Notes under the pieces: generated by a model | The model's input: the letters and a program-made list of their open reading frames with translations, nothing else | What the model was told of the DNA's origin: nothing | The model's database searches: none | Program-made: the position numbers and the translations under genes | Shown here: one piece after another, positions 12,073-51,238 of the stretch | How the letters are laid out: each line of letters begins with the position of its first letter | How positions within the stretch are numbered: the first letter of the stretch is position 1 | Assembly (NCBI GenBank): GCA_013334225.1 | Contig: JAAXXY010000011.1 | Location: 1 to 64,000, forward strand | Reading direction: 5' to 3' | From: Chlorobiaceae bacterium | GTDB taxonomy: Bacteria > Bacteroidota > Chlorobiia > Chlorobiales > Chlorobiaceae | Length of the DNA: 64,000 nucleotides

Positions 12073-14505
12073 ATGCTTGCTCAGATAGTATCAGAAAAAT
12101 TCATGAGGGGTGAACCTTGCAATGTAATGGTTTCACCACCTTTTGATGAGAAAATCCGGACAGGAAGTATGGTCATTCTTTCATCATGCAAAGGAAAGGG
12201 GACATTTTCTGTAGGTTATGTCATCGATACTGCGCCCGGTTATACGACGGAGGCTTCCGGACTTGAACTATCAGACGTGCTTCATGACGGGTTTCCGGTT
12301 CTAACCAGTTCGCTCATCATGCTCTCCGCCTGGATGGCCGATTACTATTTCGCAAGAAGAATCGAAACAATTGAAGCACTTATCCCCGCTGCCGTAAGGA
12401 CGACAATTCACGATATTGTCGAGCTGACTGCGTTCGAACTGAATGCCGACAAGCAAAAAATCATCAACACTGCCCTTCGACGTTCGATCATGCAGCTGAT
12501 GGTCAGGGAAAAAAGACTGACCGTCATGCAGCTGCAGAGAAAGCTCGGGAAAAAACAGTTGTACCAGACCCTCTCCGAGCTTGAAAGAGGGGGATATCTC
12601 GTGATGAAAAAGAAATTCTCTTTGACCAAACCAAAACTGAAAATTGCCTACCGGCTGAGCACGCCATTACCTGAAAATATTGAAACCTCTCTTTCTGCCG
12701 CCCCGAAGCAGCTTGAAGCCTTGCTGACACTTTCCGGTATGGAAGAACGTTGCTGTTTTTATGAAAAAACAGGCTGCTCGAGGGATATTCTGAATGCCCT
12801 TGTCAAAAAAGGGCTGTTAGAAAAAGTACCGGTCGAAGTGAAAAGTAATTTCTCGACAGGTTTCACTGAAAAAGCAGCTGCGCCGAAAAAACCGACTGCA
12901 GCTCAGAGTCAATTGCTTGAACAGCTTAGAGCCGCAGTTGAAAAAAATGAATACAAAACCTTTCTGCTGCATGGAGTTACCGGAAGCGGAAAAACCCTGG
13001 TCTACATCGAGCTTCTCAAAACCGTTCTGGCGTCAGGAAAAACAGCTATCGTTCTTGTTCCCGAAATAGCGCTGACCCCGCAAACCGCAGCACGTTTCAG
13101 GGAACACTTCCATGATGATATCACAATCATGCACAGCGGCATGAACAACCAGGAAAAGTATGACGCATGGCATGCCCTGCGGTACGGAAAAACAAAAATA
13201 GCCCTCGGCGCACGATCGACGGTTTTCGCTCCGCTCGAAAACATCGGGGCAATCATCGTTGACGAAGAACATGACAGTGCATACAAGCAGGACCGGCATC
13301 CCCGTTACCATGCCAGGGACACTGCAGTCATGAGAGCGATGTTCAGCAAAGCGATCTGTGTGCTCGGATCAGCTACCCCCTCTTTCGAATCGTACAACAA
13401 TACCATAAACAGCAAGTATACACTGCTCTCCCTCACGGAAAGAATCGACGGAGCGAAAATGCCGGTTATCAGGATGATCAGCATGAAAGACGCTCCAAAG
13501 GCTTCCGCATCGATTTCAGATCTGCTCTACCGGCAGATCGCCTTGCGCCTTGAACACAAGGAACAGGTTATTCTTCTTCAGAACAGACGAGGTTTTTCCG
13601 GAAGCATTTTCTGTCTATCATGTGGTCATATACCCGTATGCAGTTTCTGCAATATCCCCCTGGTCTATCATGCTTCGAAAAAACACCTTCGCTGTCATTA
13701 CTGTGGGCATACCATTGCTTACAAGGCATCCTGTTCCAGGTGCTCCTCCCCTGACATCTACTTCAAGGGCAGTGGAACGGAACGTATAGAGGAAGAACTG
13801 AGCACTCTCTTTCCGGGAGAAAAAGTACTGCGCATGGATGTTGACACCACTTCAAAAAAAGGAGCTCACGGCCGAATTCTCCGGGAATTTCAGGAGGGAA
13901 CGGCAAGCATTCTCCTCGGTACCCAGATGGTTTCCAAAGGGCTCGATTTTCCATCAGTGACCATGGTCGGTGTGCTTCTTGCCGACATCGGCCTCAACAT
14001 CCCCGATTTCAGGGCTTCTGAAAGAATATTTTCTCTCCTGACCCAGGTTGCGGGACGCGCCGGCAGATCTTCAAAACCGGGAGAAGTGTTCCTGCAGGTT
14101 TATAATACGGAAAACGATGTTTTCCCGGCGATCCTCCATGGCAGTTATGAAGAGTTTTTCCACAGGGAATCAGCTATCAGGAGACATCTGAACTATCCTC
14201 CTGCAACACGACTTATCAAATTCGAATGCTCTTCTCCTGATGAAAAAGCGGCTGAATCTGCAGCAGGATTCTGCGCAGAAACACTCGTTCATCATCTTTT
14301 ACCCGGCAAAGCCTCCATTCTCGGACCCGCACCTGCCGGCATCGCGAAACTCAGGGGCAGGTTTCGATACCATGTTCTGATGAAGCTCGCCGAAGGCAAG
14401 CTTTCACCTCTGTTCATCAGGGAGATGAGCGACAGTATAAGTGCGCGTTACCGCAAACAAGATCTTCTTTTCTCAATCGATGTCGATCCCCTGAACCTGA
14501 TGTAA
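12073..14505 (+). CDS. priA: primosomal helicase PriA
   Basis: An 810-aa superfamily 2 3'-to-5' helicase that reloads the replisome at stalled forks. Walker A GVTGSGKT near residue 305, DEEH box in IIVDEEHDSAYKQDRHPRYHARD, helicase motif III GSATPSFES, and the zinc-binding insertion with paired cysteines CLSCGHIPVCSFC ... CHYCGHT ... CSRCSSPD. Motifs V and VI are seen as LGTQMVSKGLDF and QVAGRAGRSSKPG. Length is slightly above the E. coli protein. The N-terminal DNA 3'-end-binding domain is less conserved but present. Confidence 0.96.
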   Translation: MLAQIVSEKFMRGEPCNVMVSPPFDEKIRTGSMVILSSCKGKGTFSVGYVIDTAPGYTTEASGLELSDVLHDGFPVLTSSLIMLSAWMADYYFARRIETIEALIPAAVRTTIHDIVELTAFELNADKQKIINTALRRSIMQLMVREKRLTVMQLQRKLGKKQLYQTLSELERGGYLVMKKKFSLTKPKLKIAYRLSTPLPENIETSLSAAPKQLEALLTLSGMEERCCFYEKTGCSRDILNALVKKGLLEKVPVEVKSNFSTGFTEKAAAPKKPTAAQSQLLEQLRAAVEKNEYKTFLLHGVTGSGKTLVYIELLKTVLASGKTAIVLVPEIALTPQTAARFREHFHDDITIMHSGMNNQEKYDAWHALRYGKTKIALGARSTVFAPLENIGAIIVDEEHDSAYKQDRHPRYHARDTAVMRAMFSKAICVLGSATPSFESYNNTINSKYTLLSLTERIDGAKMPVIRMISMKDAPKASASISDLLYRQIALRLEHKEQVILLQNRRGFSGSIFCLSCGHIPVCSFCNIPLVYHASKKHLRCHYCGHTIAYKASCSRCSSPDIYFKGSGTERIEEELSTLFPGEKVLRMDVDTTSKKGAHGRILREFQEGTASILLGTQMVSKGLDFPSVTMVGVLLADIGLNIPDFRASERIFSLLTQVAGRAGRSSKPGEVFLQVYNTENDVFPAILHGSYEEFFHRESAIRRHLNYPPATRLIKFECSSPDEKAAESAAGFCAETLVHHLLPGKASILGPAPAGIAKLRGRFRYHVLMKLAEGKLSPLFIREMSDSISARYRKQDLLFSIDVDPLNLM

Positions 14506-14617
14506 GAGGACCAGGCTGTCCGGTTAGTTCACACAACTGCAGGACGCTTGCTTTCGATAAAATTGCATATATTCTTACTGGAACAAGAGTGGTCCTGCAT
14601 CATTTAATTACTGTTTT

Positions 14618-15121
14618 ATGACGGCAGCATTTCAATGGACAAGGGAATCGATAAAGCAATCCCCATTAAAAACCGCAGGAATAAGTATTTTTCTGATTCT
14701 CCGGTATGTCTTCGTTATTTTTTTCCTTTACGGGTTCTGGTTTAAACTCGTGAAAGGCTGGCTCTGGACAGACCTTATGTACGGCTACTTCACGAAAAGG
14801 TTCGCCGAGTTACCTCCAGGTTCTTTCCAGGCACAGTATCTCGAACATTTCGCCATTCCACTGGCATTGCCGATTGCATGGGTTGTCACCATCGGTGAGC
14901 TCATAATAGGAGTTTGCCTTGCACTCGGTATTGCCACGAGGGCAAATGCCGCCTTTGCACTGTTTCTTGTCCTGAACTTTGCGGCAGGTGGTTTTTATAA
15001 CCTGACACTACCCCCATTTATGGTTTTTTCTTTATTGATGATGGTTTTCCCTTCCGGCCACTGGTTGGGACTCGATGGAAAACTGAACAAAAAATACCCT
15101 GATTCGATCTGGTTCAGATAA
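14618..15121 (+). CDS. DoxX-family membrane protein
   Basis: A 167-aa integral membrane protein with about four hydrophobic helices: ILRYVFVIFFLYGFWF, the segment around LALPIAWVVTIGELIIGVCLALG, ANAAFALFLVLNFAAGGF, and MVFSLLMMVFP. The pattern, including the glycine/glutamate in TIGELIIGVCLALGI, matches the DoxX family. DoxX was described as a subunit of thiosulfate:quinone oxidoreductase in Acidianus, which would be attractive in a sulfur oxidiser, but most family members have no proven function and no DoxA partner is visible here. It ends 3 nt before the TPR gene. Confidence 0.75.
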   Translation: MTAAFQWTRESIKQSPLKTAGISIFLILRYVFVIFFLYGFWFKLVKGWLWTDLMYGYFTKRFAELPPGSFQAQYLEHFAIPLALPIAWVVTIGELIIGVCLALGIATRANAAFALFLVLNFAAGGFYNLTLPPFMVFSLLMMVFPSGHWLGLDGKLNKKYPDSIWFR

Positions 15122-15124
15122 GCA

Positions 15125-15946
15125 ATGATGCATAATCTTATCGGCAACCGCATCCCACGCGGAGCGCAAATCGTTCTTTTTTCAGTCCTGTTTACTGTGT
15201 CATTATTTTTGTTTTTCCCTGCACTTCACGCTGAAACGGAAAAAAATCTCTCTGCTCTCGAGCTTGCGGAAAAAGCATTCTGGAACCTGAACTACCGTAA
15301 AGCTGACTCCATTTACATCGCAGAACTGGCCAGAAGTCCCGGAAATGCCGAACTTTACTGGAAAAAAGCGAGAACGGAGGTCTCCATTGCAGAATCGGAT
15401 GACTACGACAAAAAAGAGGCCCGCATGCGGGATTACCGCCAGGCTGAGGAGCATGCACGAAAAAGCATCAGCCTCGACAGTACAAGCTCGAAAGGGCATG
15501 CATGGCTTGCCGCTTCTCTTGGAATCATGGCGGACAATGTCGGCTCGAAGGAAAAACTGAGACGGGCCAATGAAGTCAAACGGGAACTCGACATTGCATT
15601 ACGCATTAACCCGCATGACGAAACGGCGTTATCGATTCTCGGTTCCTACTACAAGGAAGCGGCGAATATCGGCTGGTTACAGCGATTACTCGGCAATACC
15701 TTTGTCGGGAAAATGCCTGAAGGAAATATCCAGCTCGCGGAAAAAGCGTTCAGGAAAGCAATTCTGGCTGACCCGAGGATCATAAGAAATTACCATGAAC
15801 TTGGCTTGCTACTGCTTGAAAATGACCGGAAAGCGGAAGCGGTTCCCCTCCTTAAAATGGCACTCGATAAACCAGTCCTGTTCGCAAGCGACAGAAGACG
15901 GCTGGAGGAAATTCGCCAGTCACTGAAAAAGCTTTCGAATGAATAG
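15125..15946 (+). CDS. periplasmic TPR-repeat protein
   Basis: A 273-aa protein with a cleavable signal peptide (hydrophobic core IVLFSVLFTVSLFLFFPA, likely cleavage after ALHA) followed by tetratricopeptide-like helices covering almost the entire mature part. The repeats ALELAEKAFWNLNYRKADSIY, YRQAEEHARKSISLDS and LAEKAFRKAILADPRIIRNYHELGLLLLEN can be read directly. The overall arrangement recalls the RMD/TPR proteins found in Chlorobi and Bacteroidota. Probably a periplasmic scaffold; no enzyme motif. It follows the DoxX gene almost without gap. Confidence 0.75.
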   Translation: MMHNLIGNRIPRGAQIVLFSVLFTVSLFLFFPALHAETEKNLSALELAEKAFWNLNYRKADSIYIAELARSPGNAELYWKKARTEVSIAESDDYDKKEARMRDYRQAEEHARKSISLDSTSSKGHAWLAASLGIMADNVGSKEKLRRANEVKRELDIALRINPHDETALSILGSYYKEAANIGWLQRLLGNTFVGKMPEGNIQLAEKAFRKAILADPRIIRNYHELGLLLLENDRKAEAVPLLKMALDKPVLFASDRRRLEEIRQSLKKLSNE

Positions 15947-15994
15947 ACTGAAGTCCGTATTGAAACGATATATGGCGGGAACAGAACTGCAATG

Positions 15995-16162
15995 TTATCA
16001 CTCCGGCAGAAATAAGCCGCAAATAAATTCTGAAGACGGATTCTTCGCTTCGCCATCCATGAACAACTACTGCTTTCAGTATATTCACTGACCAAATTTT
16101 ACTGATTTATTGTTCATGTTCCGTGTGCGGAAGCGGCCGGATACGGGGAACTCAGAATGACA
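15995..16162 (-). repeat. copy of the TTATTRCTCCGG dispersed element (truncated, carrying the extra module)
   Basis: Read on the minus strand this copy shows TGTCATTCTGAG, then a segment of about 105 bases that is also present inside the 37-kb copy (CATGAACAACAAATCAGT-like, ...TTTTGGTCAGTGAATAT), then GAAGAATCC and a terminus resembling CTTATTTCTGCCGGAGTGATAA. The central hairpin and the half between GGATTCTTC and the terminal repeat seen in other copies are missing. It lies downstream of the TPR gene and explains the similarity between the track ORFs at 15790 and 37235. Confidence 0.75.
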
Positions 16163-16238
16163 GGAACAAGGAGTTTGTTCAGAAAAAAGTTGATACTCTT
16201 GATCACCGGATTAATAAACTGATGCAGTCCCGGGACTC

Positions 16239-16691
16239 CTATTGCCTGCCTTTACCCGCAATCCCGAGAAGCGCCCTGACACCAAGTTGGTAGCTCTCAA
16301 ACCCGAACCCGCTGATAATACCGCTGCATACAGCGGAAATAACCGATTTGTGACGGAACTCCTCACGGGCGTAAATATTGGACAGATGCACCTCGACAAC
16401 AGGTATGCTCACCGCGCTGATAGCGTCGCGAAGAGCGATCGAGTAGTGGGTGAAAGCCCCGGCATTGAGAATGACGCCGGTGAAACCACCTCGATCTTCA
16501 CAGGCAAAGAGCTTCTCGAGCAGAGCGCCTTCATATTCCGATTGAAAAAATTCGAAGGAAATATCCGGAAAACTGTCTGAAAGCGACCTGTTGATATCTT
16601 CAAGAGTTCTGTAACCGTAAACCTGCGGTTCACGTTTTCCAAGCCTCGACAAATTCGGGCCGTTGAGAACAAGAATCGATGTTAAGCTCAT
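16239..16691 (-). CDS. aroQ: type II 3-dehydroquinate dehydratase
   Basis: A 150-aa enzyme of the shikimate pathway that dehydrates 3-dehydroquinate to 3-dehydroshikimate. Type II motifs: LVLNGPNLSRLGKREPQVYG with the catalytic arginine and tyrosine, the NAGAFTHYSIALRDAI helix, and VEVHLSNIYAREEFRHKSVIS with the catalytic histidine. Dodecameric cytosolic enzyme. It is the last gene of the DUF3109-rpoN-hslV-hslU-aroQ run, 23 nt after hslU. Confidence 0.95.
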   Translation of the reverse strand: MSLTSILVLNGPNLSRLGKREPQVYGYRTLEDINRSLSDSFPDISFEFFQSEYEGALLEKLFACEDRGGFTGVILNAGAFTHYSIALRDAISAVSIPVVEVHLSNIYAREEFRHKSVISAVCSGIISGFGFESYQLGVRALLGIAGKGRQ

Positions 16692-16714
16692 CTTTGCGAT
16701 CGGGACTGACTAAG

Positions 16715-18187
16715 TTACAGGATATACCGGCTGAGATCCCTGTCTTCGACCACATGGTTCAGTTTTTCCTTCACCATGCTTTCATCGATCTCGACCTGCT
16801 GATCGGAATAATTCTCCGGGATATTGAACATCAGTTCTTCAAGAAGCGTTGTCATGATGGTATGCAGACGCCTTGCGCCGATGTTCTCGACTGTTTCATT
16901 GACACGGGCTGCAGTCCTTGCGATCTGACGAATTGCTCCTTCGGTGAAAGTAAGGTCAACCCCTTCCGTTGCAAGTAATGCTGTATACTGCTTGATCAGG
17001 GCATTCCTGGGCTGCGTGAGAATCAGGAAAAAATCCTCTTCAGTGAGGCTTTTCAGCTCAACACGGATCGGGAACCTTCCCTGCAGTTCCGGTATGAGAT
17101 CAGAAGGCTTCGCCACATGGAAAGCGCCTGAAGCAATGAACAGGACATGGTCGGTTTTTACGATACCATATTTCGTGGCAACATTGGAACCCTCCACAAT
17201 CGGAAGAAGATCGCGTTGCACCCCTTCCCTGCTGACGTCGGGACCTTTGCTGCCGGCCCCGGTAGAGGCAGAAGCAATTTTATCTATCTCGTCGATAAAA
17301 ACAATGCCGGACTGCTCGACCTTGTTGATGGCTTCCTTCACAACACTATCCATGTCGATGAGCTTCTGGACTTCTTCGTGTTCAAGCAGCTTTCTTGCTT
17401 CGGCAATGGTAACTCTTCTTTTTTTGCGTTTCTTTGGCAATCCGCTCATAAGGTCCTGCATGATCCCGCCTATTTCCTCCATCTGCCCGAGGGGGCCGAG
17501 TATCTGCATCATCCCTCCGGGAGCGTCGCTCGATATATCAAGTTCGATCTGACGATCTTCGAGCTTTCCGCTGCGTAAACGCTCGCGCATCTTCTGGCGG
17601 CTCCGCCGGTTTATCTCTACAGAAGGGTCCTGTTCCTCGCCGGATACAGAAACCAATGCCTGCTCATCTTCCTGCTGTACCTCTTCCTCCCGGGACGCGA
17701 CAGGCGGAAGAAGGATATCGAGCAGCCTGTCCTCGACAAGCTGCTCGGCTTTTTCAAGGACTTCTTCCGATTTCTCGCTCCTGACCATCGCAACGGACTG
17801 ATCGACGAGATCACGGATCATGGATTCCACATCACGGCCTACATAACCCACCTCGGTAAATTTCGACGCCTCGACCTTCACGAAAGGTGCTCTGGCCAGT
17901 TTTGCCAGCCTTCGTGCGATTTCTGTCTTGCCCACACCGGTAGGTCCGATCATGATGATGTTGTTCGGCATGATCTCATCGCGGAGCTCGTCACTTACGT
18001 TCTGACGGCGCAGTCTGTTACGAAGGGCAATTGCAACCGATTTTTTCGCGTCTTTCTGTCCGATGATATATTTGTCAAGTAACGAAACGATCTGATTTGG
18101 TGTAAGATTATTCTCGGCAATCGATCCTTTTCCTCCATTGGAAGTTTCGTCTCTGACTAAAAGATTTGACTCTTTGGTTATACTCAT
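16715..18187 (-). CDS. hslU: ATP-dependent protease ATPase subunit HslU
   Basis: A 490-aa AAA+ unfoldase that feeds the HslV peptidase. Opening [34 protein letters not shown], Walker [10 protein letters not shown], pore motif [10 protein letters not shown], Walker [12 protein letters not shown] and the C-terminal tail ending SRYIL that docks into HslV. The intermediate (I) domain is longer than in E. coli HslU and contains a Q/E-rich acidic stretch, which accounts for the extra length. The gene starts 86 nt after hslV. Confidence 0.96.
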
Positions 18188-37112: not shown

Positions 37113-37403
37113 TGTTACTCCTGCTATTAAAACTTTCAATTCTGGTTGGAAACAATAGCTCATATTTTGTCATTCTGAGCCCCCTGTATCCGGCCGCTAC
37201 CGCACACGGACCATGAACAACAAATCAGTGAATTTTGGTCAGTGAATATGCTGAAAGCAGTACTTGTTCATGGAAAGCAAAGCGAAGAATCCATAAATTA
37301 TTGAATAATAATAAAATGGATTCTTCATTCCGCTACGCTTCATTACGGAATGACAGACCAGATGCATGTATTTCCTTGCGACTTATTATTGCCAGATCAA
37401 TAA
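37113..37403 (+). mobile_element. MITE-like element with an inserted ~105-bp module
   Basis: Same ends and centre as the 26.7-kb copy (starts TTGTTACTCCTGC, ends GCCAGATCAATAA; central AATGGATTCTTCATTCCGCT). Between TCATTCTGAG and GAAGAATCC it carries about 105 extra bases (TCCGGCCGCTACCGCACACG...) that are also found in the truncated copy at 16 kb. It lies right upstream of the thioredoxin-TPR gene. Confidence 0.82.
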
Positions 37404-41893: not shown

Positions 41894-42087
41894 TTATTGC
41901 TCCGGCAACAATAAGTTGCAAGAAAATCTATGCAACGGGGCTGTCATTCCGCTATGAAGCGTAGCGGAATGAAGAATCCATTTTATTACTATTCTATAAT
42001 TTATGGATTCTTCGCATTGCTCAGAATGACAAAATCGGAGTTATTGTTGCTAACCAGGATTGGCAGTTTTAATTGCCGCAGTAATAA
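41894..42087 (-). mobile_element. MITE-like element, inverted copy
   Basis: On the minus strand it reads TTATTACTGCGGCAATTAAAA ... GCCGGAGCAATAA, matching the 26.7-kb copy almost throughout, with the central ATGGATTCTTCATTCCGCT. About 194 bases, no coding capacity of its own. Confidence 0.85.
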
Positions 42088-42209
42088 TATCGGCATGAAA
42101 ACAGCGGAACTGCCCGGGCAACGTACCCTCGGCCATTGCATATCGGTGGTTGAATTCCCTCGGGGCGTTTAAAAAAAACGACATTGTTCTGACGTAAAGC
42201 ATACAGGAG

Positions 42210-42229
42210 GGCGGACATTCCTGTCCGCC
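42210..42229. repeat. REP-like palindrome, unit 1
   Basis: GGCGGACATTCCTGTCCGCC, a 20-base near-perfect palindrome flanked by AGG and ATTCAAA. It is paired with a similar unit in opposite orientation 44 bases further. Confidence 0.6.
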
Positions 42230-42272
42230 ATTCAAACATATCCCTCGCTATTGAATTTGATTGTTTTTGAAT

Positions 42273-42292
42273 GGCGGGTTGGAAAACCCGCC
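42273..42292. repeat. REP-like palindrome, unit 2
   Basis: GGCGGGTTGGAAAACCCGCC. Together with unit 1 it makes a BIME-like pair (both units flanked by TTTGAAT/ATTCAAA on their facing sides), located at the 3' end of the C25 peptidase gene, where it may stabilise or terminate the message. Confidence 0.6.
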
Positions 42293-42400
42293 CCACTTGA
42301 AACCCTCACCGCTGACGCACCGTCTCCTCACGGGGCACAACGGCCTGCCCAATAGCCTCGTTATATTCGACTCAGGCGTAACTTTCCCGAACCTGAACCC

Positions 42401-45199
42401 TCATTTTGTATTGTATTTCCTGAGGCAGAAACCGCAGCCGTCGTACCCGGCATTCAAGCCGTCCTGCAATTTCTCGAAGTACACCTTGTGGTTCGGCGTC
42501 ATCCTCTCGACCCACTGGCATCGGCAATCGTGCAGTTCATCGGTATTGCTGTTCCCGATATAGAAGTTTTTCGCCTCGGCGACCGAGCGGTAAACAGGCA
42601 TTTCAGGATCACCGAAGAGATGGGTGTTATAGCAGTACCATATCCGCCCCAGGCGTTCATCGCCGGATATTCCGGAAAGCAGTTCAAGCCGGGAATCGTT
42701 CATTTCCCCGAGATGCCTCGTCAGAGCCATTCTCATAAAGAACAGTTCGCGATAAATCGAGCCCAGTCCGATCCAGCTGAAGCGGGTATTGCCGATATAG
42801 GCCACGGCCGCACCGTTCACGAAGTTGGTAGCCAACTCGGCAACGCTGTCATTGACGTCGAGCTTGCCGGTCAGGCATGAATCTGCATAGAGAATGAATG
42901 TTTTCGGACCATTGACAAGCGTATTGACAAGACCTGGACTGAAGTAGGCACAGCCCGGCCAGTTTCCATGCCCCGTAAGGCTTACAAAGTGCGGGCCCCG
43001 GTTGAGTGAGGCTTTCAGGTTGTCTTCAGTCAGGTGCCGCAACCAGGTTTCGGCTGCTTCCGCAGGATTCATGTCGGCTTCGTCGGTATAGAGACGTTCG
43101 ACATGATCGATGCCTGGAAATGCCTGCAGCATTTTTTCACGAAGCGATTCCTGCTCGGTGACCGAACTGTCGAGATCTGAATAATCAATTCCGAAATACA
43201 TGGGGTTGAGCACACCCGGATCACCGTCCCAGACAACAATCCAGGGTGTCGGAACCGGAAATTCCCAATGGAACCAAAGAAAAGAGAAACTGAAAATACT
43301 GGGAGAAAGATCGCTTGACGATTTGGCATAATACCAGCCGGGATTGCTGTGACCGGCATTCGACCGGTAGGTCAGACGGCGGTAGTAGTGATCATCGAAA
43401 AAACAGATGATCTGATCGCCGGCATCTGGAGGAAGAGAATCGCAATGAAGCAGGGCATGGTTGGAAAAAGTCTTGTATTTACAGGTCTCCGGAACGGCAT
43501 GTACGGTATCATGCTCAATACGATAGAATTTTCCCCAGGTCGTCGCAGCATACAGCATGGAGCGGAAACGGTCATAATCCGAATCGGGACGGGGAACGGA
43601 ACCCCATTTTTCATAGTCGAGCACCTTGTTGACAAACGCCTCAGCTTCCGCGACACTCTCCACCGAAGCCCTTCCGATGCTCACATCAGCACGGTATTCG
43701 ACGTTGTCGAAGTTCTTTGACGCACTGTGCTGGCCATAGAGATGGTTGTTGAGATGATCCCAGTCATGCTTGCCTGCAACGGAGTATCCCGAACCATACA
43801 GGCTTGCGTAGTAGAAATCGGTGGGAATGAGGTTCATATCCGTATACCACACCATAACGGCATTGACTTTCGATGAAGGTCCGTTCACCCTGACCCATTC
43901 CGTGGAAGCGGAACTGATGGTCGCGAACGTGTCATCGGTGGTGTAATACCATCCTGCCGTTGTTGTCGAGGAGGTTCCTGCCGAGTCATAAGGAATCAGG
44001 ACACCGGTATCGTAGTTGGTAAGGATATCGCCGGTACTGTTGAAGTCGTTGGTATCGACGCGCATACCCAGGTAACTCCCTTTCCATACGGAGCAGTTCT
44101 TGTCCTTGCTGATATCCCCGCTGTAGATGCGGCCCCATGCACAGCTCGCCGCCCGGCGAGCCGGAATGATGCTGACATCGCCGCCAAGCAGCACGAATTC
44201 CACGCCGCGAGAGCCGCAGAACCATTTAAGGAAGTTCCTGATCACTTCGGCAAGATCACGGGCACCGGTCATGAAGTCGCCGTATTGACCATCGACAATG
44301 TCTTTGACCTGGGCGACATGGGTACGCAGGCCGCGAGATTTCTTCCAGTTGGCAAGCTGCCGGAACTTGCCTGTTATGTCGCCGATATAGCTGCCCTGCA
44401 ATGCAAGTACGCTGTCCCATTTGTTGTTGTCCGTAATGATCAGGTAATCACAGGCCACCGGCGCGCTGATTCCTTTTTTCTTAGTCACGGGAAGGGCGAA
44501 ATCCGGTTTGACCGGAACATCTTTTTTCAGGCTGGCGATGCTTTTGCGAAGCTGTTTGTCGACAAGCGTTTTGTTGACGACGATATCGTTGAGAATAATG
44601 TGCTGATTGAACAGTTTCCGGGGAGAAAGACGTTTTCCGTTCTCTTTTGCGAGCCGGTCCATAGCCTCCGACGACTCGGACTCGACGGTCAGGGTTATCT
44701 CCTCATGCAGGGAAAGCAGCCCTTCCCTGGTAAGACATACCGGCCAGACCTGAATAAGCGCAACAGGAACAAGGCCCACCATCTCTTCACCTGCGAAGCG
44801 ACAGATCTGTTTTCGGCGATTGAAGGCATTCTGGTATTTTTTCTGCTCAGGGAAGGCAAAGCTCCGCCTGTAATTCATATAGGGAAGCGCATCATCCGGG
44901 CCTATCGAGGGCTGTTGTACCGAAGCGACCGGTTCCGGAGTGTGGTTGAGGAGAACTGCCGGAGAGCTCTTGAACGTCAGCCGCTTGAATCCGTGCCCTG
45001 CAGGAAGGGCAACACGGATGAGTTTGAAGGGAAGCGCTGGCGCTCCGGGATCGGCAGTGGACTGAAGACCTTTCATGGAGATACGGATGCCGAAAGGAGT
45101 TGAAAGCAGCTTCACATCTGATCGCCTGAATTGAAGATGTTGTGTCTGGGCGACAACATCCGGCTGCAAGGACTTTGCAGTAGCAGATCGCTTTTCCAT
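42401..45199 (-). CDS. gingipain-like C25 family cysteine peptidase
   Basis: A 932-aa protein. Residues 1 to about 270 resemble the C25 propeptide (VALPAGHGFKRLTF and the following beta-rich part); the catalytic domain follows, with LLGGDVSIIPAR, the catalytic histidine in SLTGHGNWPGC (about residue 744) and the nucleophile in YADSCLTGKLD (about 775), the clan CD arrangement. Unlike gingipains there is no signal peptide (a stop codon lies two codons upstream of the ATG) and no type IX sorting tail; instead the C-terminus has a cysteine set CRCQW ... CGFC. Cellular location is therefore unclear. Base use is like the host. Confidence 0.82.
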   Translation of the reverse strand: MEKRSATAKSLQPDVVAQTQHLQFRRSDVKLLSTPFGIRISMKGLQSTADPGAPALPFKLIRVALPAGHGFKRLTFKSSPAVLLNHTPEPVASVQQPSIGPDDALPYMNYRRSFAFPEQKKYQNAFNRRKQICRFAGEEMVGLVPVALIQVWPVCLTREGLLSLHEEITLTVESESSEAMDRLAKENGKRLSPRKLFNQHIILNDIVVNKTLVDKQLRKSIASLKKDVPVKPDFALPVTKKKGISAPVACDYLIITDNNKWDSVLALQGSYIGDITGKFRQLANWKKSRGLRTHVAQVKDIVDGQYGDFMTGARDLAEVIRNFLKWFCGSRGVEFVLLGGDVSIIPARRAASCAWGRIYSGDISKDKNCSVWKGSYLGMRVDTNDFNSTGDILTNYDTGVLIPYDSAGTSSTTTAGWYYTTDDTFATISSASTEWVRVNGPSSKVNAVMVWYTDMNLIPTDFYYASLYGSGYSVAGKHDWDHLNNHLYGQHSASKNFDNVEYRADVSIGRASVESVAEAEAFVNKVLDYEKWGSVPRPDSDYDRFRSMLYAATTWGKFYRIEHDTVHAVPETCKYKTFSNHALLHCDSLPPDAGDQIICFFDDHYYRRLTYRSNAGHSNPGWYYAKSSSDLSPSIFSFSFLWFHWEFPVPTPWIVVWDGDPGVLNPMYFGIDYSDLDSSVTEQESLREKMLQAFPGIDHVERLYTDEADMNPAEAAETWLRHLTEDNLKASLNRGPHFVSLTGHGNWPGCAYFSPGLVNTLVNGPKTFILYADSCLTGKLDVNDSVAELATNFVNGAAVAYIGNTRFSWIGLGSIYRELFFMRMALTRHLGEMNDSRLELLSGISGDERLGRIWYCYNTHLFGDPEMPVYRSVAEAKNFYIGNSNTDELHDCRCQWVERMTPNHKVYFEKLQDGLNAGYDGCGFCLRKYNTK

Positions 45200-45667
45200 A
45201 GCTTATGAGGTCTGATTTGTTTTGGGGGGAATGGAGCTCCTACATAATATGGCGCCCTTTACTTAACCTTATCATAGTAACTTTTTTTCCGAAGCAATAA
45301 AAGTTCGGAGCATAACGAAGGTGACCTGTCTACGTTTAACCGGGCAATTGTTTTTGGATAATTTCCGTTTTTACGTCTGTCATCACAGCAACACTCTCTG
45401 CCCATAAACGATTCGCAAAATCGATGATTTTATAACCTTTCTTTATCTAATGGAGTTTTTCAAACGTCTTGTTACAAATCTGAAACAAAACGAATAAAAA
45501 ATCATTACATGATTCATTGACCAGGATCGGTCAGGAAACCCAATTACAGTGTAACACACTTCGAGGGGCCGGCTGACATAATGTTACATTATGCAACAAG
45601 TTATGTGCATCGAGAAGAAAGTCGATTTTTCTAATCTTCGAGACATTCCATTATTTTTTTTACATTG
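45200..45667. other. intergenic region between the nuclease gene and the C25 peptidase gene
   Basis: 468 bases, AT-rich, without ORF track entries of value. It contains the promoter of the peptidase gene and a perfect palindrome at 45577. A stretch of about 34 codons open on the minus strand (KGYKIIDFANRLW...) is seen but not assignable. Confidence 0.4.
45577..45593. promoter_or_regulatory. palindrome of unknown role
   Basis: CATAATGT-T-ACATTATG, a perfect 8-1-8 inverted repeat located 75 bases downstream of the nuclease stop codon and about 380 bases upstream of the peptidase start. It resembles an operator more than a terminator because it has no T run. Confidence 0.35.
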
Positions 45668-47146
45668 CTATGTTTGCCTAGAGTATGAACTCGGTTTAGG
45701 AAAACCACCTCGGACAACAACCACAACTATAGCAACTTGGGACTGGCCGCTTTGATGAGAAAAAACCTCAATATCGTCTTCTACGATACCGACGGGTGCT
45801 GATTTTGTTGAGGCTTCGAGCACAGACAATACACCTATTCGCTTCCCCAGTCCGATTACATAAGCTGCTGTTTGATTGAAGAATTTAGTGAAATCCTTAG
45901 GAAATAGAACTTTGCTGTTCTCAACTTTCAATTCAATCGGTATGCCCTTGAAGGTTAAATCGGTGATCCCGCCACCAGCTTCTGGATGACCTTGCAAGTG
46001 TTCGCCTATATCACTTCGGCTTCGAAGCAATTTAGTGGCTTCTTTTTGGTACTCCGGCTCAGACATGCCAGCCTCAAACAAACCATCTCTCAGAGCTTGG
46101 GCTGCGATATTGCCAAATCCACCGAGCAATGTCATTGTGTTCGCAATATCATCTAAATGCAAACCGTGAAAGGTTCTTAACTTGTCACGAACATTGAGAA
46201 GATGTTGATCGACATTTGAAAAGCCAGTTAAAGGGTTTGAAGCAATATCAGTTCCTTCCAAGAGCAACCGGCGGTGCCCGACAATGGCAACATCCCGACC
46301 ATTGCTCGTATCGTCAAATTCGGCTGCATACAGAAACTCATATGGTCTTGAGCCAAATGAATGAGCTACTTCCAAAACTGCGCGACCAGTGCCAGTAAGA
46401 ATAAATGGGCCGCTCCCTCCTGGCTTCTTGAACCTAAAATCAGGTAACCAATTCTGCTCACGCCTATCGATTGTCACTGGCGTCAAAAAAAGGATTTCAG
46501 CACCTTTTGGCCAATTTGAAACCCTAACTTCAAGAGTAAGATCATATGCCGTCCCTGGCTTAAGATAGTTCCATTGCTTGGCTGGCTTTCCATCGATATC
46601 AAACTTCAAAAACGCTACGGTTGTCTCGAACTTCTCAGGCGTTTCTGAACATCCCTTAGAAGTAGAAACGCGAAGCTTATCAAAACCATCAGGTCTTAGA
46701 TTGGCAAACAAAAGAAGCGGCAAATTCCAGTGTTTTAACTGATCTTGTATTTCAGTCAGTTCATCCACGTTACTCAGGCCGCCGACTAGAGCCAGAAACC
46801 CTTTTAAACGCTCATCAGCAGCGAAACTCAAAGACTTGTCAGCCTCTGAAGCTTTGAGCTTCGCCGAACTCAAGAACCGTTGAGCATCTTTTTCAGCATT
46901 GCGGATAGCATGCTTCCATTCAGCCAAAAGCACAAAGATGTCAATAGCAGTTTGATATGCTCGATACTGATCCTCGACATTGCCTTGAGCGATTTTAGAT
47001 ACTGCTTCGTCAAGCTCTACACTAGCCTTTTTTAGGCGCTCAAGACCATTCAACGAAGGCGTCAGCGCTTCTGCGAGTGCAGCTGCAACATCACTTCTCG
47101 AAGAAAAAGCTTGACGGAAAATCTCTAAGTTTAGCTCGTTCTTCAT
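45668..47146 (-). CDS. predicted PD-(D/E)XK nuclease with N-terminal helical and middle beta domains
   Basis: A 492-aa protein I do not recognise by name. Residues 1-135 are helical and charged, about 170-300 look beta-rich (strands such as LTLEVRVSNWPKGAEILFLTPV), and the C-terminal part shows a restriction-endonuclease core: GGGITDLTFKGIPIELKVE, with Asp396, Glu405 and Lys407, followed by QTAAYV (Gln425, Tyr429), the Q-x3-Y pattern common in this fold. It therefore should cleave DNA or RNA. The start lies inside the 856-aa gene (56-nt overlap), implying coupled expression and a joint function. Base composition is less GC-rich than the surroundings. Confidence 0.7.
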   Translation of the reverse strand: MKNELNLEIFRQAFSSRSDVAAALAEALTPSLNGLERLKKASVELDEAVSKIAQGNVEDQYRAYQTAIDIFVLLAEWKHAIRNAEKDAQRFLSSAKLKASEADKSLSFAADERLKGFLALVGGLSNVDELTEIQDQLKHWNLPLLLFANLRPDGFDKLRVSTSKGCSETPEKFETTVAFLKFDIDGKPAKQWNYLKPGTAYDLTLEVRVSNWPKGAEILFLTPVTIDRREQNWLPDFRFKKPGGSGPFILTGTGRAVLEVAHSFGSRPYEFLYAAEFDDTSNGRDVAIVGHRRLLLEGTDIASNPLTGFSNVDQHLLNVRDKLRTFHGLHLDDIANTMTLLGGFGNIAAQALRDGLFEAGMSEPEYQKEATKLLRSRSDIGEHLQGHPEAGGGITDLTFKGIPIELKVENSKVLFPKDFTKFFNQTAAYVIGLGKRIGVLSVLEASTKSAPVGIVEDDIEVFSHQSGQSQVAIVVVVVRGGFPKPSSYSRQT

Positions 47147-49661
47147 TTTCTTTATCCAAATTATAACTAAGATGGCACCAAGTGTCGATAAGATCAGAAA
47201 ACGCCTCTCCGCTCCCTATCGCATGTTCAATCTTGGAAGCTACTTCAATCAAAGAAGCTTCAAGCCGCCACTGTTCATAGCGATCTTCTTTTGGGATACT
47301 TGCTATCAGCTCCCCAAAGCACGCACTTGCCGCAGCATAGTCTCCTGCCTTAGACAAGGCCGTAGCGTATAGAACAGCCTCAACAAAGTCTTTTGACTTG
47401 AATGGTCGAAGTGCTTCGAATGCCTTTTTAAGGTCACTTATACATTTTTGAAGCTCATAGGAAGTCGCTTTTAATATCACTGATGCGCAGTCGTCAATAG
47501 AAATAGATCTAGTATAGCCGTCTTGAATTGACTTCAACGCCACTCTGACAAAACCAGGGACATCCTTAAAGCCATAATGCAAGCGATCAACTGCGTGATA
47601 CAGGGCATTTCCCTCTAAACTGAGTAAGATAGAGGAAAGCCGCAGCCCGAACCCTCCGGTTCTTTCTTCTGGCACAAGACAGAGAGAGGCAAACACGTCA
47701 ATACAGTCAACGATGAAATCATCCTTCTTGTTTTCTTGGGAGTAATAAACAATCAATATCCATAGCCCTTGAATAATATGCCCACGTTTATCTTCCGGAA
47801 ATGATCTACGCCCCAAAGAATGAACAACTGATTTATGAACAAAAACATACGGGTCATTTAGCAATACGGAAAATGCATCAAAGAACAAATCGGGAAAGTT
47901 CTGTACCAAGTCATATGGAACATTCTTCCATGCTTGCACCGCACAGCCTCGAACAAGAGCACTCTCGTCCATTAAGGCACGGTACCAATCGGAGAGCACC
48001 ATTTTTAGACTTTCAACCCCAGTCAACAATTTTGAAACATGAAGGATCATGTTTCCGCGCATTTGGGTTTGATTATCTGGCAATCTCCGATAAAGGTTAA
48101 GGAACTGTTCAATTCCTTCACGCCCCTTGGATTTTGCTCCTATCGCAGCCCACTCGATCAGTGCACCTTGCAAACTGTCAATTGATGATCGTTTGTTGCG
48201 TCTATCCATTTGAGCGAGCACATCGTTAGTCAACTCCAATGAATTCGCTGTATCTACCTGCTCATACTTCTCACTGAGTGTAGCTGCCGCGCCGATCAAA
48301 TCATCAAAATGCTCGACTGCAAGCTGAGCATACTCATCCCAAGAATGCCTGAAAAACTGCCCTGAATCATCCATGTTGTTTTCGGGGTTTTCCACAGCTG
48401 CCCAAAGCAATCTTCTGAATGCTATCCTTTCTGCTATTCCTATCTGAACTTGTTCCCGATAGAGGCACTTCAACACCGAGCTATAGACTCTATAAGCTTC
48501 TTTTCTTCCGATATGATCGTTATCCTCGAGAAACGATTGGATGATCTTATCAGCTTCCTCTGGAAAACGTTTGAAGCTCTTCGAAGCTGCTTTACGAAGA
48601 TAATAAAGCACACTACTCCCCTCACTACGCTCCCCAGGAAGAAGAGTTCGCCTGCGCATCAACTTGGCGAATATGTCTATAAGATGTTTTGAAAACAATT
48701 CGTTGCTATCTATTGCAAGTATAATCTCAATAGCTACTTCGATTTTCGCTGGGTTAGCATCACTTAGAAGAATCTCAACTTCCGCACCAATCTCGGCCTG
48801 CCTTTTCTGGTAGAGCTGATGGATTGGCTCAGCATCGAGTAGCATTGGTTCAGTCCTGCCAATATGCATTCCTGGCGGCGGCGCTAAAGCCATCCATACA
48901 AAGCGACGTAAAACCTTTTTCAGGTCGATTTGGGAAAGTTCTTCCGCATTTGATAAAATCACATCTATTATTTCTGGCGATTTCTCATTATTGCTCACCA
49001 TGCGGACTGCCACTAACAGCTTTTCTTCGCGTTCTAATGAGGCCCTAAACAAAGCTTTCGCAGCAAACATTGAATACGGCAATTGCTCATAGAGAACTTC
49101 CGGCAAAAGGTGGTCGATTATTTTTCTGGTAAATGTCTCAGGAGCAAGGTTTGCAAGCTGCTCCAAACGCGGATCGTCATTTGATATGTCTTCTCTATCA
49201 AGATCATCCAAGAGATCGAGAACGAAGGATTCCTCTAAAGAAAGTTCGTAATGAAGTTTAGCGCGCGCTGCCTTTCTCTCAGACTGTTTCTGCACTCTCT
49301 TCTTTTCTTCTTGTTCGCGATCCCTTTTTCGCTTTTCAGCAGCTTTTTCCCTAGGGTCAACAAAATCCAAAATATTAGGAAAATTAACGGGAACACGTTT
49401 TTTACAATTCTTGCAGTTATTCTGGTAGAAGTCGAAAATCGAATCTTCCAGCAACCAAGAATGCATTGAGTTTTTTTTTGAAAATTTGCACTGAACCCCC
49501 ATATGCCCAATTGGAAGATCAGTTGCAGCTTCAATCATCCCCCTACCTGGAGACCTAGCGACTTCGGCATAAAAACACCAATTGCGTAAAAGCTTTATTG
49601 CTCGTAGATTACGTTGGCCAGCTTCTACTGCATCATTATAACGATCTTCAAAATCATCCAT
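47091..49661 (-). CDS. large zinc-knuckle / helical-repeat protein of unknown function
   Basis: An 856-aa protein with no recognised family. Near the N-terminus a C-x8-H-x15-C-x2-C set (CKFSKKNSMH ... NNCKNCKKRV, about residues 58-86) should bind zinc; it is followed by a very basic and acidic coiled segment (KAAEKRKRDREQEEKKRVQKQSE). The remaining 700 residues appear as helical pairs with HEAT-like spacing and no ATPase, nuclease or membrane motif. Such a protein would be a scaffold or a sensor. It overlaps the nuclease gene by 56 nt and follows the HEPN-like gene and a recombinase remnant on the same strand. Confidence 0.7.
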   Translation of the reverse strand: MDDFEDRYNDAVEAGQRNLRAIKLLRNWCFYAEVARSPGRGMIEAATDLPIGHMGVQCKFSKKNSMHSWLLEDSIFDFYQNNCKNCKKRVPVNFPNILDFVDPREKAAEKRKRDREQEEKKRVQKQSERKAARAKLHYELSLEESFVLDLLDDLDREDISNDDPRLEQLANLAPETFTRKIIDHLLPEVLYEQLPYSMFAAKALFRASLEREEKLLVAVRMVSNNEKSPEIIDVILSNAEELSQIDLKKVLRRFVWMALAPPPGMHIGRTEPMLLDAEPIHQLYQKRQAEIGAEVEILLSDANPAKIEVAIEIILAIDSNELFSKHLIDIFAKLMRRRTLLPGERSEGSSVLYYLRKAASKSFKRFPEEADKIIQSFLEDNDHIGRKEAYRVYSSVLKCLYREQVQIGIAERIAFRRLLWAAVENPENNMDDSGQFFRHSWDEYAQLAVEHFDDLIGAAATLSEKYEQVDTANSLELTNDVLAQMDRRNKRSSIDSLQGALIEWAAIGAKSKGREGIEQFLNLYRRLPDNQTQMRGNMILHVSKLLTGVESLKMVLSDWYRALMDESALVRGCAVQAWKNVPYDLVQNFPDLFFDAFSVLLNDPYVFVHKSVVHSLGRRSFPEDKRGHIIQGLWILIVYYSQENKKDDFIVDCIDVFASLCLVPEERTGGFGLRLSSILLSLEGNALYHAVDRLHYGFKDVPGFVRVALKSIQDGYTRSISIDDCASVILKATSYELQKCISDLKKAFEALRPFKSKDFVEAVLYATALSKAGDYAAASACFGELIASIPKEDRYEQWRLEASLIEVASKIEHAIGSGEAFSDLIDTWCHLSYNLDKENEERAKLRDFPSSFFFEK

Positions 49662-49670
49662 AATGAGTTA

Positions 49671-49850
49671 CTAGATAACTGTGATTATCTCGGGAACAAG
49701 ACAACAATCCACGTCATTCCTACAGCGCATATGCCTATTTTCGATTGGACATGCCTCCATTCTTTTTCTCGCACGAGCAGCTTTCAGGCCGGCCTGGTAT
49801 CGTTCCTGAATCATCTTGCATTCGAACTGTGCCACAGTACGCGTAAACAT
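49671..49850 (-). pseudogene. remnant of a serine recombinase (resolvase/invertase)
   Basis: A 59-codon frame missed by the ORF track, beginning immediately after the HEPN-like gene's stop codon and in the same frame. It reads TVAQFECKMIQERYQAGLKAARARKRM, a close match to the AEFER-LI-ERT-AGL-AARARGR segment that joins the catalytic domain to the C-terminal DNA-binding domain of serine resolvases/invertases. The catalytic serine part is absent. It shows that a transposon or invertible element was once inserted here. Confidence 0.65.
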
Positions 49851-50378
49851 TTAAGGTAGTGCGAAGTGTCGGCACTTATGTCGAATCTCTTCGAGCGCTT
49901 TCAGTATCGCTGCCAAATCCACCGATTCACCGCGAAATGAAAGAGTTTTCGTCATAGGATTATAACCACGATGAAGATTGGCTGGGTTGTGTCCCCAGAT
50001 GGATTCGAATGGATCGATTCTCGTATCCATATATACCGCTGAACAATTTTTCTCGAACCACTTTTCGATTCGCTCGTCGTAGTGCTCAAAATGATTTCTT
50101 ATTTTGCGATCAGAAAGCAGATTGTGGTCATCGACGTTGAGTAGCATCCGCAAGATTTTGCCTCGTGCCTCAGACGTCTTTCGCTGGGGCCAGAGAATTT
50201 TCGAGACATTTGCGGCGGCGACGAGGATCGATTGGATCGCACTCCAGGGCTCAATCGGGTCAAAGTGATCTTCGCAAGTCACAAGGCGTTCAGCCGCCCG
50301 TTCTGCAATCTTTGACTGCAAAACGATCTCACTGATAAAGACCAGCTCCTCAAGTGCTTTCATCTGACTATTACCCAT
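49851..50378 (-). CDS. HEPN-like protein (putative ribonuclease)
   Basis: A 175-aa, entirely helical protein with the motif RKIRNHFEHYDERIEKW. The RNHFEH part fits the R-x4-6-H catalytic motif of HEPN-superfamily RNases, found in toxin-antitoxin, abortive infection and CRISPR-associated systems. No signal peptide or membrane segment. Related RNHFEH-containing proteins are often annotated simply as hypothetical, so a toxin function is an inference. It lies upstream of the zinc-knuckle protein on the same strand, separated by the recombinase remnant, and may be cotranscribed with it. Confidence 0.6.
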   Translation of the reverse strand: MGNSQMKALEELVFISEIVLQSKIAERAAERLVTCEDHFDPIEPWSAIQSILVAAANVSKILWPQRKTSEARGKILRMLLNVDDHNLLSDRKIRNHFEHYDERIEKWFEKNCSAVYMDTRIDPFESIWGHNPANLHRGYNPMTKTLSFRGESVDLAAILKALEEIRHKCRHFALP

Positions 50379-50602
50379 GATTCATATTCCCCGCGAGTAC
50401 AGCTGTCATGCCGGATTTTTCAGAATGAAATCTATTACTTGTTATGCCATATGTCAACATAAACAGATTTATACTCTATTCTGACATGAATCAGGTATGA
50501 TCCTGACATCAGGTTAGGGTATAGTTCAGATTGACATATTTTTTACTCCCCAAGTCAACCTTCAGTCCCGCCCACCCCCAAAAAAGCATCGGTCAGCAGG
50601 GT

Positions 50603-51238
50603 TTACTTTATGCGGGTGTTCGGTTTATAGTCGATGATTTCCGCTCCTTTCTCCTGTACCTTCTCACATGCCTTGTTCACTTCTTTTTCCGAACGGTCCC
50701 CGACGCCATTTCTTACGAACTTCACCTGATAATTTCTTTTCAGCGCTTCCAATGTCGTTTCCAGGACACATTGATCAGCATAGACACCAGTCACAACCAG
50801 TCTGTTCACCTGATGATCGACCAGATATTTTTCAAATTCCTTGTTGCTGAACGCATCGGTATTTTTTTTTGAAAAAACGGCAGTGCCGCTGACCCTGATT
50901 TTGCTGTAAATATTGGCACCCAGGCTTCCTTCCATGGCAGCATGACGCCGGATCCTGTTACCAAGAGCAAACCGTGGAAACTCACTTTTCACATAGATGA
51001 TGAGCTGACCGCTTTTTTCGAACTCGTCGATAAGGCTGTTCACGACTGCGGTAACGCCCGGAATCTGCTCTTTATTTATCGGCGCCTTCCCTTTTTCATC
51101 AAGAAAATCCTCCTGCATATCGAGGACAAGCAACGCCGTCTTCGGATGCTCATATTGCTGGATGGGATTTCCTCCGGCTACAAAGCTGAATCCGGAGATC
51201 ATCATAAAAATCGCCATCATGAGCATAAACCGTTTCAT
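50603..51238 (-). CDS. secreted isochorismatase-family hydrolase
   Basis: A 211-aa protein of the cysteine-hydrolase (isochorismatase/nicotinamidase) family with the catalytic triad: Asp in LDMQEDF, Lys in FSKKNTDAF and Cys in VYADQCVLET. Unusually it has an N-terminal signal peptide (FMLMMAIFMMISGFSFVAGG), so it should act in the periplasm. Substrate unknown; nicotinamidase or a related amidase. It lies alone after the accessory region. Confidence 0.85.
   Translation of the reverse strand: MKRFMLMMAIFMMISGFSFVAGGNPIQQYEHPKTALLVLDMQEDFLDEKGKAPINKEQIPGVTAVVNSLIDEFEKSGQLIIYVKSEFPRFALGNRIRRHAAMEGSLGANIYSKIRVSGTAVFSKKNTDAFSNKEFEKYLVDHQVNRLVVTGVYADQCVLETTLEALKRNYQVKFVRNGVGDRSEKEVNKACEKVQEKGAEIIDYKPNTRIK

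Follow-up and report, generated by a model that had tools for sequence, protein, structure and literature searches.

A candidate two-gene anti-phage system with an OloB-like, predicted PD-(D/E)XK nuclease in a Chlorobiaceae bacterium

Results

An OloB-like protein with three predicted domains

The window, a stretch of 64,000 nucleotides (positions 1–64,000 of contig JAAXXY010000011.1, assembly GCA_013334225.1) from a Chlorobiaceae bacterium, contains an ORF at 45668–47146 with an ATG start, encoding a protein of 492 aa on the minus strand (Table 1). The plus strand across the same interval carries many stops. These coordinates are exactly those of the first-pass annotation, which gave no strand. 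The protein matched the PADLOC OloB profile over residues 37–491 (E = 2.3e-50) and by this match is already recognized in databases as OloB. Searches of Pfam, NCBIfam and PDB sequences returned no family and no solved relative.

Table 1 Features of the oloA/oloB-like locus in the window.
Feature	Position	Strand	Basis
OloB-like gene, predicted nuclease subunit, 492 aa	45668..47146	-	ORF; PADLOC OloB; full-length relatives at 62-78% identity
N-terminal helical domain, residues about 1-140	46727..47146	-	AlphaFold helices
Middle beta-sandwich domain (predicted), residues 176-297	46256..46621	-	AlphaFold strands; weak Foldseek matches
C-terminal PD-(D/E)XK domain (predicted), residues 363-489	45680..46060	-	AlphaFold elements; same domain ends LmuA
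D396, motif I aspartate	45959..45961	-	D in 8/9 domains, E in L012
E405-L-K407, (D/E)XK motif	45926..45934	-	E and K invariant, 9/9 domains
Q425-x3-Y429 motif, helix 420-433	45860..45874	-	Q and Y invariant, 9/9 domains
Upstream partner gene, OloA-like, 856 aa, HEAT-type alpha solenoid (predicted)	47091..49661	-	PADLOC OloA; AlphaFold; Foldseek
Four invariant cysteines C29, C58, C83, C86, OloA N terminus	49404..49577	-	Invariant in 8 partners
Overlap, oloA end / oloB start, 56 bp	47091..47146	-	ORF coordinates
Variable segment: pair, C25 peptidase gene and 175-aa ORF	41963..50552	.	Comparison with G010

The domain architecture was assessed with an AlphaFold model computed from a shallow alignment of seven sequences (mean pLDDT 58.6). 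The model agrees with the three-domain division proposed at first pass, with a helical part (7–138), a beta sandwich (about 176–297) and an alpha/beta part (310–480). The N-terminal helices (7–27, 32–51, 56–94, 105–122 and 127–138) were modeled with low confidence, and hits of this region to stathmin and EAL proteins were taken as helical noise. Most blocks of the middle domain had pLDDT of about 57–84, with parts lower. UNC119, RhoGDI and the FW domain of ILRUN were weak Foldseek hits, which suggests an Ig/UNC119/RhoGDI-type beta sandwich. At first pass, no recognized relation was given for the middle and N-terminal domains; the protein as a whole is, however, already recognized as OloB, and the nuclease domain is related to the C terminus of Lamassu LmuA, as described below.

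A conserved operon with an OloA-like HEAT protein

Directly upstream lies a gene whose 856-aa product matched the PADLOC OloA profile (E = 1.1e-62). The adjacent, overlapping genes thus matching OloA and OloB form the gene pair by which Olokun is called. The AlphaFold model of the OloA-like protein is all helical (mean pLDDT 77), and its Foldseek matches include condensin CAP-G, karyopherins and PP2A-A. Four N-terminal cysteines are unchanged in all eight partners compared, some of which are only 16–25% identical, and these residues likely form a zinc site.

The two genes overlap by exactly 56 bp in the window, in relatives L001–L005 and in an E. coli locus (L044). Pairs overlapping in this way are found in Geomobilimonas, Marinobacter and Dinoroseobacter as well as E. 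coli, so that this overlap is conserved across phyla; more distant relatives have overlaps of 68, 23, 11 and 4 bp. The A gene lies directly upstream of B in every relative whose upstream DNA was inspected. Identities among A proteins track those among B proteins (r = 0.99 across eight pairs, 0.96 in the close clade alone). Because the 56-bp overlap is exact and the two proteins diverge in parallel, A and B can be regarded as one unit. The first-pass suggestion of an effector with its sensing domain in one chain therefore describes at best half of the system, since oloB is the second gene of a conserved two-gene operon and the separate 856-aa HEAT protein is likely the sensor or scaffold.

The C-terminal domain has the order and residues of a PD-(D/E)XK nuclease

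In the OloB model, the C-terminal secondary structure elements are helix 363–375, strands 384–386, 397–399 and 402–409, helix 420–433 and strands 437–444, 458–466 and 469–479. Over residues 363–479 this corresponds to the order alpha-beta-beta-beta-alpha-beta (block pLDDT mostly about 60–84, with lower loops). D396 is placed just before the second strand, E405 and K407 in the third, and Q425 and Y429 on the following helix. The Q-x3-Y motif is typical of RecB/Cas4-type end-processing nucleases.

Conservation was evaluated across nine C-terminal domains, including the distant ones and those from Lamassu. Of the 137 gap-free columns, 13 are invariant, a set to which E405, K407, Q425 and Y429 all belong (P of about 5e-5, given that these four columns were specified in advance). 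E363 in the first helix of the domain is also invariant. When full-length B proteins were compared, 18 of the 30 invariant residues fell within 363–489. The catalytic-type residues are kept at overall identities of 17–24%, with D396 changing only to E, and relatives with as little as 20–23% identity follow this pattern.

These results uphold the proposal, made from the sequence at first pass, of a C-terminal PD-(D/E)XK core carrying D396, E405, K407 and Q425-x3-Y429: GGGITDLTFKGIPIELKVE and each named residue were found at the positions given, the model shows the predicted element order, and the residues are conserved in homologs. A fold lacking the core or a lack of conservation of the three acid and lysine residues would have counted against the proposal, and neither was observed. 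A Foldseek search with the whole OloB model, which was swamped by beta-sandwich matches, gave only beta-sandwich and solenoid proteins and no PD-(D/E)XK structure among the matches listed. The predicted PD-(D/E)XK fold is therefore drawn from element order and conservation rather than from a structural match.

The nuclease domain is shared with Lamassu LmuA

The last 100–130 or so residues of OloB matched the PADLOC LmuA profile (E = 8e-11), while the remainder of the protein had no LmuA match. Lamassu with a C-terminal PD-(D/E)XK LmuA (PADLOC PDLC03853) is exemplified by two Streptomyces plasmids (L063 and L064). On both, LmuA (503 and 484 bits) adjoins LmuB (647 and 465 bits), and the LmuA C terminus aligns with the domain from the window, with the E, K, Q, Y and D residues kept. 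No other enzyme domain was recognized in the LmuA proteins with the OloB-type ending. Because the same nuclease domain ends LmuA in Lamassu loci beside LmuB, it appears to be an interchangeable module that serves SMC-based as well as HEAT-based sensors. Assignment of the window pair to plain Lamassu was rejected, as there is no neighboring LmuB and the partner protein, which matches OloA, gave no hit to any LmuB model.

Distribution and genomic context point to a mobile system

Full-length relatives of OloB with 62–78% identity were found in Geomobilimonas, Marinobacter, a Dinoroseobacter MAG and a deltaproteobacterial MAG, and E. coli copies are 67% identical to the window protein. Distant relatives (L033, L037, L018/L011 and L019/L012) share about 20–34% identity with it. 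Within the family, none of the other 85 genomes (86 searched) yielded a match to the gene, and the phage genomes searched contained no relatives. Two viral contigs (L037 and L038) carry an OloA/OloB-like pair; there the pair adjoins phage genes (terminase-like and primase/helicase-like ORFs by eye), with a PAAR-like gene in L037. Plasmid matches in Rhizobium and Martelella were set aside, having no intact B gene where inspected. At L005 5921–7198, the OloB-like gene is broken after about residue 390 with loss of the nuclease domain, so that either such pairs are subject to decay or the contig has an error at this point.

The pair occurs in 5 of 5,426 E. coli genomes, on the chromosome. It follows a tyrosine integrase and is located at tRNA-Thr in two of three loci inspected; in L044 it spans 13979–17969. 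The E. coli islands (L043–L045) comprise the integrase, the pair, a 240-aa ORF, SIR2 genes and a PDC-M09B candidate, and the island of one strain (L043) also contains Zorya ZorD. In L043 the oloA-like gene starts at an IS5 element.

In the window, comparison with a close relative (G010) showed that the flanks match at 91–95%, while an 8.6-kb segment, variable within the window's genus, is replaced by 407 bp. G010 does not offer a clean empty site, as 407 bp of different sequence occupy the position; this stretch (L059 12880–13286) resembles an IS3-type transposase remnant by eye. Also within the variable segment, a 932-aa gingipain-type C25 peptidase (42401–45199, minus strand) adjoins the pair; its C-terminal 55 or so residues are found in other genes of the genus and are perhaps a sorting tail. 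A 175-aa ORF without a family match lies upstream of oloA (49851–50378, minus strand). The other neighbors of the pair in the window had no PADLOC match. A 69-bp sequence at 37335–37403 is repeated in inverted orientation at the left edge of the segment, at about 41894–41962 (82% match through G010). An isochorismatase-like gene (50603–51238) flanks the segment, and a second, 92% identical copy at G000:C99:23151–23780 fits either the stated 6.9% contamination of the assembly or a paralogue. Taken together, the E. coli islands, the viral contigs, the variable segment and the sporadic presence show the pattern of a mobile defense system.

Discussion

The reading that best accounts for these data is that the pair is an anti-phage system, spread by horizontal transfer and catalogued as Olokun, in which the OloB-like protein is probably the nuclease effector of a two-protein system. 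In such a system, OloA, with its HEAT solenoid and four-cysteine site, would sense an infection cue or scaffold the complex and keep OloB inactive, and OloB would dock through its helical and beta-sandwich domains. Once activated by release or recruitment, the PD-(D/E)XK domain of OloB would cut DNA, with D396 and E405 binding the metal, K407 acting as the catalytic lysine and Q425 and Y429 serving as in RecB/Cas4-type nucleases.

A reading that differs from this one solely in the target is that OloB is a toxin-like nuclease directed against host DNA and OloA its inhibitor, so that phage attack would free OloB and lead to abortive infection. The overlap and co-inheritance of oloA and oloB would suit such an arrangement, as would the domain held in common with LmuA, which is described as an abortive-infection effector; OloA is, however, very large for a mere antitoxin, and we regard host targeting as possible but somewhat doubtful. 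It is rather unlikely that OloB is instead a restriction-like or repair nuclease that targets certain DNA structures or ends, with a DNA-binding solenoid role for OloA and no killing involved. AlkC and condensin CAP-G, both among the Foldseek matches, are HEAT-type solenoids that do act on DNA, and the Q-x3-Y motif is compatible with end processing, yet sporadic occurrence on mobile islands suits defense better than housekeeping repair.

How the pair relates to Olokun itself was considered separately. Olokun (OloA/OloB) was reportedly described by Millman et al. in 2022. Its mechanism is given as unknown or uncharacterized (PMC12926258, PMC12592470). Comparison of the window lineage with main-group OloA and OloB by hhalign gave probabilities of 0.1 and 0.3% (E = 0.72 and 0.22), that is, no detectable homology; group-specific HMMs with filters off never found the B protein of the other group and found A at best with E = 0.15, and pairwise phmmer yielded no links between main-group and window-lineage OloB. 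In the main-group OloB set (L007–L010, L030, L031, and Klebsiella and Photobacterium plasmids), the N terminus carries a Y/F-G-x-D...x-K motif whose D50 and K70 are invariant (in L007–L010, L030 and L031); the motif resembles PD-(D/E)XK but mostly lacks an acid before the K. The PADLOC OloA and OloB profiles (PDLC03925/PDLC03926) thus appear to have been built from a mixed set of two lineages.

It seems unlikely to us that the window pair belongs to ordinary Olokun and shares ancestry with the main group, having diverged past detection. The profiles cover almost the whole length of the proteins of both groups, and both consist of two adjacent genes with a PD-(D/E)XK-like motif in B, but the hhalign and HMM comparisons leave a plain main-group assignment unsupported and the motif sits at opposite ends of the B protein. 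We consider plausible, though at less than an even chance, the proposal that catalogued 'Olokun' covers two unrelated two-gene systems, each of which would have independently joined a PD-(D/E)XK nuclease to a helical partner. The window lineage would then be a distinct, unnamed defense system combining a Cys4-HEAT sensor with the Lamassu LmuA nuclease module.

Lamassu effectors kill or degrade DNA upon sensing (PMC10586767, PMC12904381), which agrees with an effector role for the domain common to OloB and LmuA. One review assigns the effector to the N terminus of LmuA proteins generally and views their C-terminal domains as possible docking parts (PMC10586767). By that account the shared domain might serve for docking, as a degenerate, non-catalytic PD-(D/E)XK fold. 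This is very unlikely, because the catalytic set is retained across such divergent sequences and that type of LmuA has no other recognizable enzyme domain, which argues for an effector.

The OloB lineage accordingly offers Olokun a concrete candidate effector with named residues, present in E. coli chromosomes, and suggests that one nuclease module has been exchanged between the SMC-based sensor of Lamassu and a HEAT-based one. Annotation tools may be merging two lineages as Olokun, and functional results obtained for one should therefore not be extended to the other.

Among known systems, the PD-(D/E)XK nucleases with QxxxY (RecB/Cas4-like) share with OloB the D...ExK...QxxxY and alpha-beta-beta-beta-alpha-beta orders, although by sequence OloB matches neither Pfam nor any solved member. 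In Lamassu, the last 130 or so residues of LmuA are homologous to OloB and have the same E-x-K, Q-x3-Y and GN/GG..PS ending; LmuA is partnered by SMC-like LmuB, whereas OloB is partnered by a HEAT solenoid and has the beta-sandwich middle domain that sets it apart from LmuA. Olokun likewise consists of two adjacent genes, A then B, to which the window pair gives near full-length PADLOC matches, but main-group OloA has about 490–690 aa compared to about 855 aa in the window lineage, and main-group OloB bears an N-terminal D...K motif where the window lineage has a C-terminal nuclease domain.
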